Below, one piece after another: positions 10,801 to 19,214 of a DNA stretch of 56,618 nucleotides. The position numbers and the translations under genes were made by a program. The stretch covers positions 1-56,618 of IMG/VR virus record IMGVR_UViG_3300023174_000199; one strand, 5' to 3'. Positions within the stretch are counted from its first letter, which is position 1, and every line of letters begins with the position of its first letter. Origin of the DNA: a virus. The notes under the pieces are model-generated. The model saw only the letters and a program-made list of their open reading frames with translations. It did no database searches and was not told the origin of the DNA.

Positions 10801-11385
10801 ATGGGTTCGCTTTCTAACTTTAATGATGCGTGTGTATCAATTAATGAAATTAAAACTAAATACGATTTAAATGTATTTGTAGAGACAGGTTGCTTTCAAG
10901 GCAACACGTTGAGGTATACGACAGGTTATAACTTTGAACGAATGTACAGTTGCGATATAGACAAGGAAATGATCGATAGGTGTAGTGATATTTCACCTAA
11001 CATAGAATTGTTTCTAGGTACATCGGTAGAATTTTTAGAACAATTACTACCTCGACTAACAGCTGATCGCATTTTATTTTTTCTTGATGCGCATTTACCC
11101 GAGCATGATAAGAACAGCGGTACGGTATTATTAGATTCAGAGCATAACTTTCCATTAAGGGAAGAAATTGAAATTATAAATAAATACCGTAAAGATAAGA
11201 ACGACGTTATCATTTGCGATGATTTACGCATATACGAAGACGGTCCGTTTGAAGGTGGTAATTGGGATAAACGTAAAAATTATAAAGACCTTGATTTAAA
11301 TTTCTTAAGCTTATATAATTATAAGGTAGAGAAGTTTTACAGTCATGAAGGCTATATCTTCTTAACAAAAGATATTGCTGTATGA
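10801..11385 (+). CDS. Class I methyltransferase-like protein
   Basis: A 194-aa protein. VFVETGCFQGNTLRY (about residues 25-39) resembles the glycine-rich SAM-binding loop. MYSCDIDKEMIDRC (about 49-62) gives the acidic residue expected at the end of strand 2, and ILFFLDAHLPEH (about 91-102) corresponds to strand 4 with a metal-binding-like DAH. This plan is shared with sugar O-methyltransferases such as the TylF/CmcI type. The substrate is unknown. The gene ends directly before the tmRNA. Confidence 0.65.
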   Translation: MGSLSNFNDACVSINEIKTKYDLNVFVETGCFQGNTLRYTTGYNFERMYSCDIDKEMIDRCSDISPNIELFLGTSVEFLEQLLPRLTADRILFFLDAHLPEHDKNSGTVLLDSEHNFPLREEIEIINKYRKDKNDVIICDDLRIYEDGPFEGGNWDKRKNYKDLDLNFLSLYNYKVEKFYSHEGYIFLTKDIAV

Positions 11386-11661
11386 AGCAAAGAGAAAAGT
11401 GTTCTGGACGCGGGTGCGAATCCCGCCAGGTCCACCAGATGTACTGGGTTCATTACCCTCAGCGCGAAGCCTAGAGCGACTAGGGTACATCTGATGGGCC
11501 TGATATAGATTCGACAGGGCAAAGAGTAACAGAGTGGACAGCACATCAGAGCAGATGTTAAAACTAAACAAAAGTAAACGCAAACGACTCAAAGTTCGCA
11601 TTAGCAGCCTAAACACTGCTTAGGGTTTCGTAGGTTTCCTCGTAACAGAATAACCTACACT
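11386..11661 (+). ncRNA. ssrA: Circularly permuted (two-piece) tmRNA
   Basis: The order of parts is reversed relative to a standard tmRNA gene. First comes the acceptor piece: T-arm GCGGG/CCCGC (11410-11426), acceptor strand CAGGTCC (11427-11433), discriminator A and encoded CCA (11435-11437). A 58-nt spacer (11438-11495) follows. Then the coding piece starts GGGCCTG (11496-11502), which pairs with the acceptor strand and gives the alanine identity pair G3-U70; next come the AGATTCGAC D-loop element, an A-rich linker, and the resume codon GCA at 11580. The tag is ANDSKFALAA, stop 11610-11612. AGCAG/CTGCT (11603-11607 / 11616-11620) forms helix P5 around the stop. Inverted repeat GTAGGTT/AACCTAC closes the 3' side. 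The outer ends are approximate. Confidence 0.92.
11437..11495 (+). other. Internal transcribed spacer of the permuted tmRNA
   Basis: AGATGTAC (11437-11444) pairs with GTACATCT (11485-11492). Inside are GGGT/ACCC (11446-11458) and CCTAG/CTAGG (11470-11484) hairpins. The precursor therefore joins the mature 3' CCA end and the mature 5' end by a branched hairpin that must be cut out, presumably by host processing enzymes including RNase P. Confidence 0.8.
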
Positions 11662-11675
11662 TATAATGGAAAAAA

Positions 11676-12305
11676 ATGCATAAAGAAGTTCTTTTTGACA
11701 AGCCAAGAATAGTTCTATACAATGATGTATTTTCGAAAGATGAATGCGCGGATTTGATTAAGAGTATTCCATCTGAACAATTTTTTGCGGCTGAGGGTTT
11801 TGACTTTGTAACAAAAAAAGGTATACCTACAGACTATAGATCTAACTCTTCATACATTGATAAGGGGTTTAAACTCAACCCCCTGCATCAGAAATTAACA
11901 GAGTTAATTGAGGGGGAGTTAATAGGTACCTACCCCTATATTGAATTACCTGTACAAGTACAGCGGTACGATGTGGGTCAGCAGTATAAGACTCATGTTG
12001 ATTTTTTTAATAGAGCAAATGAACCTAAAGTCTTTGATGTTGATAGAATTGCTTCTATTATTGTTTATTTAAATGATGATTTCGAAGGTGGGGAGACGCA
12101 TTTCACAACTCTAAATATTAAAGTAAAGCCTAAAGCAGGAATGGCATTGTTTTTTAAATACAACTATAATGATCCTATATATAATAGGAATACATTCCAT
12201 GCTGGTATACCAGTAATTAGTGGTACAAAATACATTGTAACAGCTTTCTTTCGAAGTGAACCATTAAGTTATAAATGGAATGCAATTGATATCCTTAGGG
12301 TATAG
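11676..12305 (+). CDS. 2-oxoglutarate/Fe(II)-dependent oxygenase
   Basis: A 209-aa prolyl-4-hydroxylase-type dioxygenase. The iron triad is visible: HVD at residues 107-109 and His175 in TFHAGIPV, with Lys185 in GTKYIV as the likely 2-oxoglutarate anchor. FEGGETHF and KPKAGMALFF are the standard family blocks. Such enzymes hydroxylate proteins, nucleic acids or small molecules and are abundant in marine T4-like phages; the substrate is unknown. The gene begins just after the tmRNA, with GGAAAAAA before the ATG. A TATAAT-like element at 11662-11667 lacks a -35. Confidence 0.92.
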   Translation: MHKEVLFDKPRIVLYNDVFSKDECADLIKSIPSEQFFAAEGFDFVTKKGIPTDYRSNSSYIDKGFKLNPLHQKLTELIEGELIGTYPYIELPVQVQRYDVGQQYKTHVDFFNRANEPKVFDVDRIASIIVYLNDDFEGGETHFTTLNIKVKPKAGMALFFKYNYNDPIYNRNTFHAGIPVISGTKYIVTAFFRSEPLSYKWNAIDILRV

Positions 12306-12685: not shown

Positions 12686-13222
12686 ATGGTACGTTTTATG
12701 AACCTACTAATCAAGCTTACATTGGTGGTAGCTGTTGCTGCTATACTTGTTAGCTTCACGAAGAACAGAATTGAGTATTACAAAACTAAACCTTTTAATG
12801 ATATACCCATTACAATGGCAGAGCGGGAGAAGCAATTAAATTGTTTAGCGAAAAATATTTATTTTGAAGCAGCTCATGAACCTTTTGAAGGTAAAGTTGC
12901 AGTTGCGCAGGTAACAATCAACCGATCTAACTCAGGTAGGTACCCAAGCGATATTTGTGATGTAGTATATCAGAAGAATGTATTCTTTGGTAAGGTTGTA
13001 TGTCAGTTTTCTTGGTACTGTGAGCAAGGTCCGAAGATTACAGGTAATACTGCAAGCTATAAAGAATCCATGGAGGTAGCTAAGAAAGTACTTCTTGAGA
13101 ATTTTAGATTACCAAGTCTAAAAGATGCTTACTTCTATCATGCTGATTATGTGTCACCAAATTGGAATAAGCCAAAGATAACACAGATCGGTCGTCATAT
13201 ATTTTACGGAGAGAAATCATAA
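12686..13222 (+). CDS. SleB-type cell-wall hydrolase with N-terminal membrane anchor
   Basis: A 178-aa protein. Residues 6-24 form one hydrophobic segment (LLIKLTLVVAVAAILVSF) suited to a signal anchor or uncleaved signal. Residues about 50-178 are a SleB/CwlJ-type hydrolase: CLAKNIYFEA with Glu61 as likely catalytic residue, then VAVAQVTINR, the C-x-F-SWYC segment and FYHADYVSPNW. The family cleaves peptidoglycan. An anchor of this type would let the enzyme reach the periplasm through the host Sec system, as in SAR endolysins. AGGAG lies 7-8 nt before ATG 12686. It overlaps the next gene by one base. Confidence 0.88.
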   Translation: MVRFMNLLIKLTLVVAVAAILVSFTKNRIEYYKTKPFNDIPITMAEREKQLNCLAKNIYFEAAHEPFEGKVAVAQVTINRSNSGRYPSDICDVVYQKNVFFGKVVCQFSWYCEQGPKITGNTASYKESMEVAKKVLLENFRLPSLKDAYFYHADYVSPNWNKPKITQIGRHIFYGEKS

Positions 13223-14931: not shown

Positions 14932-15825
14932 ATGGCATTAGACTTTTCAGCAATGAAGAAAAATCGCGGTACGTTTGACAACCTGATGAAGGAAGTCGAA
15001 AAGATCGCCACCCCTCAAACTCAAGAGAGTAACTCTAAAGATGACCGCTTCTGGCAACCAGAGGTAGATAAAGCCGGTAACGGTTACGCAGTCATCAGAT
15101 TCCTACCACCACCAAAAGGCGAAGATCTTCCTTGGGTTCGCGTTTGGAATCACGGCTTCCAAGGCCCAACTGGTAAGTGGTATATTGAGAATTCTCTCAC
15201 TACCCTTGGTAAGCAAGACCCTGTAACTGAACTTAATAACGAGTTGTGGAATGCAGGTACTGAAGCCAATAAAGAAATTGCACGTAAGCAAAAGCGTCGT
15301 CTTACTTACATTGCTAATATTATTGTGGTTAAGGATGCTGCGCATCCTGAGAATGAAGGTAAAGTATTCCTTTATAAGTTCGGTAAGAAAATCTTTGATA
15401 AGATCAAAGATGTAATGCAACCTCAGTACGAGGATGAAGAAGCAATTAATCCTTTCGACTTCTGGAAAGGTGCTAACTTCAAATTGAAGATTCGTAATCT
15501 AGAAGGATATCGTAACTACGATAAGTCCGAGTTTGATGCAATTTCAGTATTGTCAAACGATGACGATGAACTTGAAACGACTTGGAAGAAGCAATACTCT
15601 CTCCAGGAGTTCTTAGATCCCAAGCACTTTAAGTCTTATGAAGAACTTAAGGCTAAGCTTGAAATGGTTCTGTCAGGTACAGGAACGACTGCTCCTAGAG
15701 CGGAAGAGACTGCACTTGCTGAAGATCGTCCGCGTCCTGTCTCAAAACCAGCTCCTAAGGCCAGTGTTGAAGATAGCGCAGATGATTCCCTGTCGTACTT
15801 TGCCAAGTTGGCGAATGACGACTAA
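14932..15825 (+). CDS. 32: Single-stranded DNA-binding protein gp32
   Basis: A 297-aa homologue of T4 gp32 (301 aa), which coats single-stranded DNA in replication and recombination. The N-terminal basic segment (MKKNRGTFDNLMKEVEK) matches the self-association domain. The core contains YAVIRFLPPPKGEDLPWVRV, ANIIVVKDAAHPENEGKVF and FGKKIFDKI as in T4. The C-terminus is Pro/Ala-rich and then acidic (DSADDSLSY ... NDD), the protein-interaction tail. There is no cysteine anywhere, so the T4 zinc site is absent. CGGAG precedes ATG. The strong promoter at 14777 and the structured RNA after the stop frame it. Confidence 0.93.
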   Translation: MALDFSAMKKNRGTFDNLMKEVEKIATPQTQESNSKDDRFWQPEVDKAGNGYAVIRFLPPPKGEDLPWVRVWNHGFQGPTGKWYIENSLTTLGKQDPVTELNNELWNAGTEANKEIARKQKRRLTYIANIIVVKDAAHPENEGKVFLYKFGKKIFDKIKDVMQPQYEDEEAINPFDFWKGANFKLKIRNLEGYRNYDKSEFDAISVLSNDDDELETTWKKQYSLQEFLDPKHFKSYEELKAKLEMVLSGTGTTAPRAEETALAEDRPRPVSKPAPKASVEDSADDSLSYFAKLANDD

Positions 15826-15913
15826 TTAGGTAGTCAGAACCTAATCCAGGACACTCGTTACCTTTAGTAACTTAGGTCCTGGAACGGTGACGAGCTAATT
15901 AGGTTTTGTTTTT
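15825..15913 (+). promoter_or_regulatory. Switch-like structured RNA with terminator, between gene 32 and the secreted protein gene
   Basis: ACCTAAT (15839-15845) can pair either with ATTAGGT upstream (15825-15831) or, as AACCTAAT, with ATTAGGTT downstream (15898-15905), which runs into a T-rich tract. CCAGGAC (15846-15852) pairs with GTCCTGG (15876-15882). Its loop segment CTCGTTACC (15854-15862) can pair with GGTGACGAG (15886-15894) as a pseudoknot, or form a local GTTAC/GTAAC hairpin (15857-15871). Thus two mutually exclusive folds exist, one ending as a terminator. I do not recognise a known riboswitch class. Confidence 0.65.
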
Positions 15914-15942: not shown

Positions 15943-16128
15943 ATGAAAAATATTATCGCTATTATCGCTTCTGCTTTCGCTTTGACTGCCTTTGCTGCTG
16001 AACCTGCTAAGACAACACCCGCTCCTGCTGCTCAAGCTGCCGCCTCCGCTGCTGCTCCTGCCGCTAAGAAGGTAGAGGCTAAGCCGGCTGCTAAGAAAGA
16101 TGAAAAGAAGCCAGAAGCAAAAAAGTAA
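15943..16128 (+). CDS. Secreted Ala/Lys-rich protein, with likely frameshift extension
   Basis: A 61-aa product. Residues 1-19 are a clean signal peptide (MKNIIAIIASAFALTAFAA; cleavage probably after FAA). The mature part is Ala/Pro-rich and then Lys/Glu/Ala repeats (AAKKVEAKPAAKKDEKK), very basic and disordered. Similar small secreted Lys/Ala proteins occur in aquatic proteobacteria, so host origin is possible. The stop TAA (16126-16128) directly follows the slippery heptamer A AAA AAG. The mature protein could bind nucleic acid, cell wall or lipopolysaccharide outside the cytoplasm; that is inference. CGGAG precedes the ATG. Confidence 0.8.
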   Translation: MKNIIAIIASAFALTAFAAEPAKTTPAPAAQAAASAAAPAAKKVEAKPAAKKDEKKPEAKK

Positions 16129-16211
16129 AGCGGCCTTGTAAAGCTGGACAGACTACGGCCGATGGTTGTAGAGTTGTTAAAAAGGCCGTAAAGAAAACAG
16201 CTAAGAAGTAA
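16119..16211 (+). other. Likely -1 frameshift site and C-terminal extension of the secreted protein
   Basis: A AAA AAG (16119-16125), the heptamer used in E. coli dnaX, immediately precedes TAA. Slipping by -1 continues with GTA (16125) for 28 codons to TAA 16209-16211. The extension reads PCKAGQTTADGC and then VKKAVKKTAKK, continuing the same Lys/Ala character and adding two cysteines that could form a disulfide. Five bases after the heptamer, CGGCC (16131-16135) can pair with GGCCG, or extended as CGGCCTT with AAGGCCG further downstream. The frame has no start codon of its own. A homopolymer sequencing or replication indel is the main alternative. Confidence 0.65.
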
Positions 16212-16216
16212 AAGAA

Positions 16217-16234
16217 TGGGGACCTAGGTCCCCA
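16217..16234. terminator. Bidirectional terminator between convergent operons
   Basis: TGGGGAC and GTCCCCA around a CTAG loop form a palindrome at 16217-16234. On the plus strand it is followed by ATTTTTATT; on the minus strand by a T-rich stretch. It ends both the plus-strand secreted-protein unit and the minus-strand structural operon. Confidence 0.9.
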
Positions 16235-16240
16235 TTTTTA

Positions 16241-18802
16241 TTAGAAGGCCGATACCCTGTCTTGGTATCGATCAAGAGCTGAACCACCTCTTTCATTCCT
16301 AGGTGTTGGTTTAACAGGTACGTAACTAGTATTATTATTTGTACTGCTATTGTTAGATACTATTGGTGTAACATTAGTACTACCGCGCGATGCTTCTCTG
16401 TTAAGATCAGCATTCTCTGTCGAGGCTTTAACAACCTCAGGGCCTGCAGTATTACCCGTTGTCTTAGGTTCAACCGCAGCTACTTGCTTTTGTTTTGCGT
16501 ATTGAGCTTCTACATCTGGAGAATACGTATTACCTGAAGCTTTAGACATCCCAATAACAGCCATTTGTTTATCAGAAAGCGGTTGATTTGGAACAACTCT
16601 CTCACCAGCAATCGTTGTATAACTTTCTGTTTTTGATATAGAAGCACCTGCTGCACCTGCCACGGCGTCTGTACTTTGACTAGCTGTTTTTGAAGCAGTT
16701 ACATCACCAACGGGGTTCTTTGCACCTGGCCCGCCAGATACTTTTTCTTCTTTCTTTTTATTTTGCTTATCGCTTATCTCTTTCATCTTCGCTTTATATT
16801 CAGGCGAATTTATTTTATTTGCTAGCTGTATGAATTCATTCGCCGCAGCATCCATGCCTGCTTTATCATCATTACTTTCTGCTTTACCAAATTTTTTCCA
16901 GGCTGCTTCAGCAGCTTCTACATCTTCCTTCTTACCCTGTAGTTCGTACCCATCCTCATAACCTGCAATTGTACTACCACCGATTTTTTCTTGTAATACC
17001 TTACTCTTTTTAAACTCAACTTTATCTTGTTTCGCAACCGCGGGTGCCCCACCCATTGCCGCGGCCGCAGCTGCACCAGGGGCTGCTTCTTCTTTCTTGC
17101 TTCCAAAGAAGCCCGAAACTGCACTACCTATACCACCCGCTTTATCTTTAAGGTAGTTAATACCTTCACCAGCTTTTTCACCAACGTATTTACCGGCACT
17201 CGAGCCTGCAAAGGCTCCTAAGGCGCCACCCGCTAAACCGCCAATACCTGCACCCACCGCAGTACCAACCGGGCCGCCAATAAACGTACCAATAGTACCA
17301 CCGAGCTTAGCACCTGCAAGACCACCAGCGATTGCGCCGGCTGCCATACCGGTACCTTCCCCAATTGCTCCGCTCTTTTCAACTGTTGCTGTATTACCTA
17401 TTTCTTTTCTAGCAGCTGCAGCTTCTTCTGGTTTCATTTCCCCGGAGTCAACTTTAGCCTGGACCTCGTCCATCTTTGCTTGCTTATTATCTTCGGCCTC
17501 TGTATACCCTTTATACGCAGTGTAGGCGCCCGCACCAACAGCAAGTACAGCACCACCAATCTTAGCCGCTTTACCGAGACTTGCCATTCTACTTGCAAGT
17601 TTACCACCTGCAGCTGCCTTACCGCCTGATGGTATTAAATCAGTTAAACCTAATCCGCCTCCACCGCCACCACCGCCGCCGCCCTCTTTAACTGCTTCAA
17701 TAAGTTCATCTAATTTTTCTACTACTCGTTTATTAGGGTCTTTATTTGGCTCATCAGCTGTTGCAGGTGTTAACGCAAGTCGTATACCTTTTAGTTCTTC
17801 GAGCTGCAGTTTTACAATAGAAAGATTTTGACCTATAAGATCGTTGGTCTCTTTAATTTCTTTTGATATAAGTTCACCCGACGTTTCAATATTATCAGAC
17901 TCTGGATTCACAGAAGCTGCTGTTATCTTTTCGTTAGGCGATTTATCAATCTCTGGTGTAGTTAATGCATCAGCTTTAGCTTGTTTATCAGCAGTAGGTG
18001 ATGCAGCAGTAACTCTTGGATCAAGAGCGTCAAATTCTTTATTTAACTTATCAAGTTCTTTTTGATCTTTTTTAAGCGGGCTAAACCCTTGAGAAGCTGG
18101 CACATCCATCTTCTCTTTTACTTTATTAATCTCGTCTTCTTTTGCTTTTAAAGCATCGTACTTATCTTTACCAGCATCAAGCGCACTCTTACCGCCTTTT
18201 TGAAACTGTGTGCCTTTTGCAGATGCTGCGTAACCTTTTGCAAACCGCTCACGTTCAGGTGTATACCCTGCCTCTGCACTAACTATATCTTTAGCAGTTC
18301 CTAATGCACCTTTAACTGAGTCCTTTACACTACCAAAAGCATTAGATAGGGTCTTTTTAGGGTTAGATGCAAAACCAGCAATACCTTTACCTATACTCTT
18401 CGCCATACCAACAGTACTCTTTAAGCCTTCTGTTAGTGTGTAGTCTTTAGGTAAGTCAGGTAGCTTACCCGTACTCCCAGACTTATTTGACTCATTATCC
18501 GATTTGCCGCTTGCACTATTACTTTTTGCAAAACTATCTTGTATATTTTTTAAAGTCTTATCAATATTTTTTAAATATTCTTCTGATTTTTTTAAATACT
18601 CTTCTGACTTATCTTTAACACCGTGACCCTCAATACCTGCAGCAGCACCTTCAACCTCAGGGTCCATTTTTGGTTGAACTTGGATTGCAGGGGTAGTCAG
18701 CTTACCGCTAGGAGTCAGCTTCTGTTTAACAACACTCTCAGCTTCGTTAAGCTTTTTTAAGTGCTTAACAATAGACTCAAATTTTTCTGACTGCTGTGCC
18801 AT
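16241..18802 (-). CDS. Tape-measure-like / large virion protein
   Basis: An 853-aa protein at the end of the minus-strand operon. Features in order: Lys/Glu-rich helical N-terminus (EEYLKKSEEYLKNIDKTLKN near 65-90), a long charged low-complexity region, a run of eleven Gly around residue 375, a hydrophobic segment (IGGAVLAVGAGAYTAYKGY, about 412-430), a long glycine-zipper region (about 480-550, repeats such as GGLAGAKLGG and GGLAGGALG), then a polar Asn/Thr-rich C-terminus ending ALDRYQDRVSAF. Location after gp26/gp51-type assembly factors parallels tape-measure genes in tailed phages, and the glycine zipper suits membrane penetration at DNA injection. By eye it does not align with T4 gp29, so the role is inferred from position and composition. 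Confidence 0.75.
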   Translation of the reverse strand: MAQQSEKFESIVKHLKKLNEAESVVKQKLTPSGKLTTPAIQVQPKMDPEVEGAAAGIEGHGVKDKSEEYLKKSEEYLKNIDKTLKNIQDSFAKSNSASGKSDNESNKSGSTGKLPDLPKDYTLTEGLKSTVGMAKSIGKGIAGFASNPKKTLSNAFGSVKDSVKGALGTAKDIVSAEAGYTPERERFAKGYAASAKGTQFQKGGKSALDAGKDKYDALKAKEDEINKVKEKMDVPASQGFSPLKKDQKELDKLNKEFDALDPRVTAASPTADKQAKADALTTPEIDKSPNEKITAASVNPESDNIETSGELISKEIKETNDLIGQNLSIVKLQLEELKGIRLALTPATADEPNKDPNKRVVEKLDELIEAVKEGGGGGGGGGGLGLTDLIPSGGKAAAGGKLASRMASLGKAAKIGGAVLAVGAGAYTAYKGYTEAEDNKQAKMDEVQAKVDSGEMKPEEAAAARKEIGNTATVEKSGAIGEGTGMAAGAIAGGLAGAKLGGTIGTFIGGPVGTAVGAGIGGLAGGALGAFAGSSAGKYVGEKAGEGINYLKDKAGGIGSAVSGFFGSKKEEAAPGAAAAAAMGGAPAVAKQDKVEFKKSKVLQEKIGGSTIAGYEDGYELQGKKEDVEAAEAAWKKFGKAESNDDKAGMDAAANEFIQLANKINSPEYKAKMKEISDKQNKKKEEKVSGGPGAKNPVGDVTASKTASQSTDAVAGAAGASISKTESYTTIAGERVVPNQPLSDKQMAVIGMSKASGNTYSPDVEAQYAKQKQVAAVEPKTTGNTAGPEVVKASTENADLNREASRGSTNVTPIVSNNSSTNNNTSYVPVKPTPRNERGGSALDRYQDRVSAF

Positions 18803-18803
18803 A

Positions 18804-19214
18804 TTATTGATCTAGGTTAGGTTTAACAATTGGTCTTCTTACAACCGGTGTTGGTGCTGGGGTAGAGTAATCACTAGTATTTTCCACGACAGGCGCGAAT
18901 GACGCAGCTGGGGTTGCACTGTAACTTGTTGGTGTATAATTAGATGCAGTACCAGCTACCTTCTCTTGTGTTCTACCCCATGCGGCAATACCGAGTACAG
19001 CGCCCATGGCAAGGTGAAATAAACCAGCCCCTTGTAAGGTAAGCGGATTCCATTGCGTAATTGGTTGCTTAGTAAGTACCTGTAACAAACTCCACAGAAC
19101 AGGAAATATTGCCATATCTAGCATACAGACGATCATATACATCCAACCCATAGCTGGACGCCATTTTTTCTGCATCCAATCTTCTTCTTTTTTTACTACT
19201 ACTTCGTCTGCCAT
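18804..19214 (-). CDS. Holin-like membrane protein
   Basis: A 136-aa protein. Two hydrophobic segments are clear: MGWMYMIVCMLDMAIFPVLW (about residues 18-37) and LTLQGAGLFHLAMGAVLGIA (about 58-77). The RPAMGW...QWNPLTLQGAGLFH pattern is shared by phage membrane proteins I associate with the three-helix holin group. The tail is Ser/Thr/Pro-rich. It starts one base after the gp51 stop and is followed by the tape-measure-like gene one base later. A role in tail or baseplate membrane contact is equally possible given the neighbours. Confidence 0.65.
   Translation of the reverse strand: MADEVVVKKEEDWMQKKWRPAMGWMYMIVCMLDMAIFPVLWSLLQVLTKQPITQWNPLTLQGAGLFHLAMGAVLGIAAWGRTQEKVAGTASNYTPTSYSATPAASFAPVVENTSDYSTPAPTPVVRRPIVKPNLDQ

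Follow-up and report, generated by a model that had tools for sequence, protein, structure and literature searches.

In one group of uncultured T4-like phages, a single gene appears to yield a small exported protein in two versions. Judged from its sequence and that of its relatives, the locus in question is very probably a conserved site of −1 programmed ribosomal frameshifting, from which a short and a long form of the protein would be produced. The site was studied in a 56,618-nucleotide stretch of viral DNA (IMG/VR record IMGVR_UViG_3300023174_000199, positions 1 to 56,618), hereafter the window, and in related viral contigs (designated L followed by a number). The relevant features of the window are as follows.

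14932..15825, + strand: gene for gp32, the single-stranded DNA-binding protein (phrog_224, E 9e-117), the upstream anchor gene
15821..15910, + strand: conserved structured leader RNA between gp32 and the secreted-protein gene, with a covarying 7-bp stem and a possible H-type pseudoknot
15943..16128, + strand: 0-frame ORF of 61 aa, the short product, with a signal peptide (..AFALTAFA|AEP), then an Ala/Lys-rich chain and the stop TAA
16119..16125, + strand: slippery heptamer A AAA AAG, immediately preceding the 0-frame stop and identical in 15 contigs
16126..16128, + strand: 0-frame stop TAA, retained by every frameshift member
16125..16211, + strand: −1 frame tail VKRPCKAGQTTADGCRVVKKAVKKTAKK, starting with GTA (16125-16127) and closed by the stop TAA (16209-16211)
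16130..16189, + strand: downstream hairpin with a lower stem (16130-16137/16182-16189) and an inner stem (~16153-16160/16164-16171)
16214..16240, no strand assigned: intrinsic terminator directly after the −1 stop, common to the convergent gene 16241-18802

The first-pass annotation of the window had placed a dnaX-type heptamer right before the stop of an Ala/Lys-rich ORF and proposed that the −1 frame adds 28 codons. Both statements are borne out: positions 16117-16128 read GCA AAA AAG TAA with the heptamer in frame with the ORF, and beyond the two shared Lys codons the −1 frame remains open for 28 codons up to the stop at 16209-16211. AAAAAAG occurs 24 times in the window (two strands together), and this gene is the only one of 134 window ORFs of at least 60 codons to end in A AAA AAG plus a stop. 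The short product of the window has an AxA-type cleavage site at its signal peptide and contains no cysteine. The tail, which opens with VKRPCKAGQTTADGCRVVKK, contributes about +9 of net charge and a pair of cysteines, spaced by ten residues, within the motif KPCKxGQTxADGCxVVKK. In each of the frameshift members read, the terminator, a 12-bp hairpin (−17 kcal/mol) followed by a T run, sits just past the −1 stop.

Relatives were fetched as viral contigs using gp32 as an anchor, the region after gp32 was read in each, and further relatives were added by DNA-pattern and motif searches. The combination of A AAA AAG TAA with a motif-bearing −1 tail behind it was found in 15 contigs representing 11 distinct sequences: the window, L102, L012, L083, L100, L101, L110, L015, L115, L116, L005, L117, L019, L104 and L105. 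Thus, when homologues were checked, as had been suggested for the window, both heptamer and tail proved conserved. The gene directly follows gp32 in every frameshift contig that includes gp32, and the 0-frame signal peptide is kept in those members having the complete gene. In other relatives (L006, L008, L009-L011, L013, L135, L143, L146, L150-L152 and L189-L201) the motif lies in one open frame, with signal peptide and motif within one chain; no third arrangement of the motif was found among the members. In the gp32 tree, frameshift members fall into two separated clades, with L019/L105 adjoining the single-frame L013, a pattern that would require two origins of the arrangement, its exchange, or several losses; because nodes inside the main clade are weak, how often it originated independently is uncertain. 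In L005 (3147-3350) and in L117 (after gp32), the 0-frame part carries a second two-cysteine motif, KCDPVKDKTCK, so that both products there would have a cysteine pair. Lys-rich exported small proteins also follow gp32 in the distant phages L035, L071, L073, L022-L025, L033, L036, L047 and L050; these proteins have no cysteines and carry the motifs VKPVGKDGKPVE or VKRPEELK.

Coding conservation extends to either side of the site, in the 0 frame before it and in the −1 frame after it. When summed over ten pairs of frameshift members, which are not mutually independent, pN/pS of the tail is 0.14 in the −1 frame versus 2.24 and 1.68 in the other two frames. Differences between tails fall mostly at third positions of the −1 frame, 9 of 11 between the window and L116 and 8 of 11 between L019 and L105, the latter being a separate pair that displays this pattern on its own. 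All ten tails compared have GTA at the codon that carries the 0-frame stop, although other Val codons of the tail vary. These substitution patterns indicate that the −1 tail is a real protein, with purifying selection confined to the −1 frame. A motif profile search of the window, L102, L116 and L105 detected one copy in each, located in the −1 frame, and consequently no other source of the long form in these records.

The first-pass annotation had also proposed a stem starting 5 nt past the heptamer. The stem is real, beginning 4 nt downstream if a G-U pair is counted and 5 nt downstream at the first C-G pair, but it represents the base of a longer two-part hairpin rather than the whole structure: in the lower stem, GCGGCCUU (16130-16137) pairs with AAGGCCGU (16182-16189), enclosing the inner hairpin. 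The folding energy of this region in the window is −24.2 kcal/mol (z −2.7 against dinucleotide shuffles). The distance from heptamer to hairpin is 4 nt for the main clade, against 6 nt for L019/L105, and the stems differ. Compared with samples of synonymous codons, the hairpin exceeded expectation in 7 of the 9 sequences tested (p = 0.0005 in the window and L012, 0.001 in L115, 0.005 in L116, 0.0115 in L015, 0.0025 in L105 and 0.0175 in L019); in L005 and L117 the excess was not significant (p ~0.08-0.09). A stricter control, permuting the existing codons, gave weaker values for the same seven sequences, with p from 0.005 to 0.13. Among six close sequences all 21 pairs are kept except the apical one, partly via G-U exchanges; since no pair changed on both sides, this speaks for conservation of the hairpin but does not amount to proof by covariation. 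Single-frame relatives have short, weaker hairpins lacking the long stem, a few of which also exceed the synonymous samples. Stimulatory hairpins are described as starting 4-10 nt past the heptamer, with a G-C pair first followed by three more pairs and a stability of at least 7.6 kcal/mol (PMC4066793). Hairpins of this kind are present in the window, the main clade and L019/L105, and are weak in L005/L117. A Shine-Dalgarno-like GAGGAG was found 12-14 nt upstream of the heptamer only in L019/L105, and no such stimulator was detected in the window lineage.

How the site would work can be outlined from these features. In E. coli, A_AAA_AAG ranks with the heptamers most prone to shifting, and work in that organism leads one to expect tandem slippage of two Lys-tRNAs (PMC4066793, PMC5009743). 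Most ribosomes would stop at GCA AAA AAG TAA, releasing the 61-aa short form, whereas some, held by the hairpin 4-6 nt downstream, would slip both Lys-tRNAs from AAA AAG to AAA AAA, read GTA in place of TAA and continue into the basic two-cysteine tail to give an 89-aa form. Slippage itself is deduced from sequence, as are the export of the products by Sec and the formation of a disulfide in the tail. That relatives encode each form as an ordinary gene lends support to the proposal of two forms, one having a Cys tail and one lacking it.

Other explanations of the same arrangement have to be weighed against frameshifting. Apparent frameshifts often stem from homopolymer errors, and the A run had been singled out from the start as a place where a sequencing or assembly error might hide. 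Yet contig comparison revealed exactly A6 G TAA in all 15 contigs, despite many substitutions between them, and A5 or A7 in none, so that an error in the run is hardly credible. Nor is it at all likely, if slightly less far-fetched, that a former single frame simply lost one base, leaving the tail as a fossil or the locus broken. Single-frame relatives from which such an indel could have started do exist, but purifying selection acts on the tail in the −1 frame in lineages all of which have the stop, heptamer and stop have been retained as the sequences diverged, and the terminator is placed after the −1 stop.

Translation of the tail alone, by re-initiation after the 0-frame stop, deserves a mention because compact phage genomes can couple termination to a new start; however, no ATG, GTG or TTG was found inside the −1 ORF, a free tail would have no signal peptide, and single-frame relatives join signal peptide and motif. 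We give this reading as little credence as a sequencing error. The alternative that comes closest, although still quite improbable, is transcriptional slippage, in which RNA polymerase would add an A in the A6 run and some mRNAs would carry the tail in frame. One extra A would give the identical fused protein, and poly-A runs are used in this way in some genes (PMC3711429, PMC5009743). Against it, every member has a run of six A, no more and no fewer, while runs of more than seven are usually cited, and a hairpin at ribosomal spacing is conserved. Ribosomal frameshifting is the reading that we adopt below.

Frameshift signals of similar design are known from several systems. E. coli dnaX (tau/gamma) has the same A AAA AAG and downstream hairpin as the window gene, as well as an upstream Shine-Dalgarno-like element matched by the GAGGAG of L019/L105 but not in the window lineage. 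However, the −1 product of dnaX is the shorter one, whereas that of the window gene is the longer one; here the stop touches the heptamer, and the genes are unrelated. Likewise, −1 frameshifts of the IS3 family combine a heptamer with a hairpin 4-10 nt downstream and turn two ORFs into one fused protein, but the product is a transposase, not a secreted small protein of a T4-like phage. In the tail assembly chaperone G/GT and T7 gene 10A/10B, frameshifting at the 3′ end of a phage gene also adds a C-terminal extension. Those are virion assembly genes, whereas the window product has a signal peptide and follows gp32. Identity with G/GT, which precedes the tape measure gene in the tail operon, was rejected, as the gene lies on the gp32 strand, convergent to the tail genes, and has a signal peptide. 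An o-spanin lipoprotein was likewise rejected: there is no lipobox cysteine, the cleavage site is of the AxA type and the short product lacks Cys.

Database searches did not connect the protein to any described family. Pfam, PHROG and NCBIfam profiles gave no match above cut-off, the best ones being weak and compositional; among these, an NCBIfam RiPP precursor (E 0.005, in 1 of 14 members) and Pfam Conotoxin (E 0.06) were dismissed as reflecting composition. Neither the short ORF nor the motif was matched in isolated phage records, and bacterial and archaeal genomes (GTDB) yielded 45 pattern matches, none of them a relative. Structure prediction of a single-frame relative reached a mean pLDDT of 61, with 73-78 in the motif region. 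The protein would act in the periplasm, possibly at the cell envelope towards the end of infection. The window encodes an endolysin (12686-13219) and a holin-like protein (18804-19214), and their proximity makes an envelope role in lysis possible, although this is a guess and we consider it rather doubtful.

The leader RNA preceding the gene provides a clue to its origin. The model of this RNA (R1) scores 102.5 bits, which none of 500 shuffles reached. Up to four pair types occur at one pair of its main stem, and a second helix would form an H-type pseudoknot; as the inner hairpin overlaps the pseudoknot pairing, the two may be alternatives, and the RNA is possibly a riboswitch or a translational switch. 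An Rfam search of the leader and tail region with E-values up to 10 returned no credible match. Diverged copies of the leader (31 bits in L007, ~21 in L003 and L135/L136) are found in L003, L007 and L135/L136 after the phage tmRNA and before a short exported Ala/Lys gene. Leader RNA copies were located as follows.

L003, 1255-1351: leader RNA copy
L007, 1149-1238: leader RNA copy
L187, 1416-1508, − strand: leader RNA copy

The short Ala/Lys proteins encoded after the tmRNA have no cysteine and end in KK-stop, their genes ending in AAG TAA. In the L135 phage, the Cys-motif protein is also encoded by a separate one-frame gene overlapping the gp32 end, whereas in L009 and its kin the same leader RNA precedes a gene in which the motif is joined in frame. 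No short gene after tmRNA was found in the frameshift phages window, L102, L116 and L105. Cys-motif genes such as those of L143 and L013 read AAAGTAAAGAAGCCTTGT or AAGGTAAAGAAGCCTTGT, and the GTAA shared by the short genes and the Cys-motif genes could be the joint. Most likely, the frameshift gene arose when the leader and short Ala/Lys gene, as found after tmRNA, joined the Cys-motif gene, as found after gp32, out of frame, after which selection would have kept both products. Homology of the short genes to the 0-frame half rests mainly on the leader RNA, because the Ala/Lys sequence is low in complexity. To the fuller scenario we assign even chances: two genes for exported basic proteins would have fused out of frame at a Lys-stop end, a −1 signal would have evolved to give both products at a set ratio, and the arrangement, arisen or transferred in at least two clades, would be accompanied by a new regulatory pseudoknot RNA.

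In the window, the tmRNA (11331-11666) is permuted (two-piece), of the beta type, with the tag ANDSKFALAA; of 26 related records searched, 17 contain a permuted tmRNA. The tag matched Psychrobacter and one Roseateles, which is not enough to assign a host. A 2OG-Fe(II) oxygenase-like gene (11676-12305) directly follows the tmRNA in the window, as it does in L102, and was not at this place elsewhere in the records read. Melnitz, an OM43 methylophage, and pelagimyophages are likewise T4-like aquatic myophages and, as here, have a two-piece tmRNA with a cis-regulatory RNA at its 3′ side (PMC9004378). However, their RNA was called a glutamine riboswitch, whereas the window leader matches no Rfam family, and the same paper makes no mention of a frameshift, signal peptide or secreted protein.

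The open-licence literature searched covers phage frameshifts in tail-chaperone and other genes, and the tmRNA-riboswitch arrangement in related phages, but not this gene. As far as databases and that literature show, the mechanism is of a known kind, while the gene, its context and its fusion history are new. Well supported phage frameshifts are mostly those of tail-chaperone and capsid genes; the one in the window, unlike them, would affect an exported small protein. The relatives form a natural comparison series, with the two halves as separate genes, a one-frame fusion and a frameshift fusion, and would illustrate the emergence of a recoding signal when genes fuse at a Lys-Lys-stop end. 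Gene callers will truncate such proteins at the stop and thereby miss a conserved domain.
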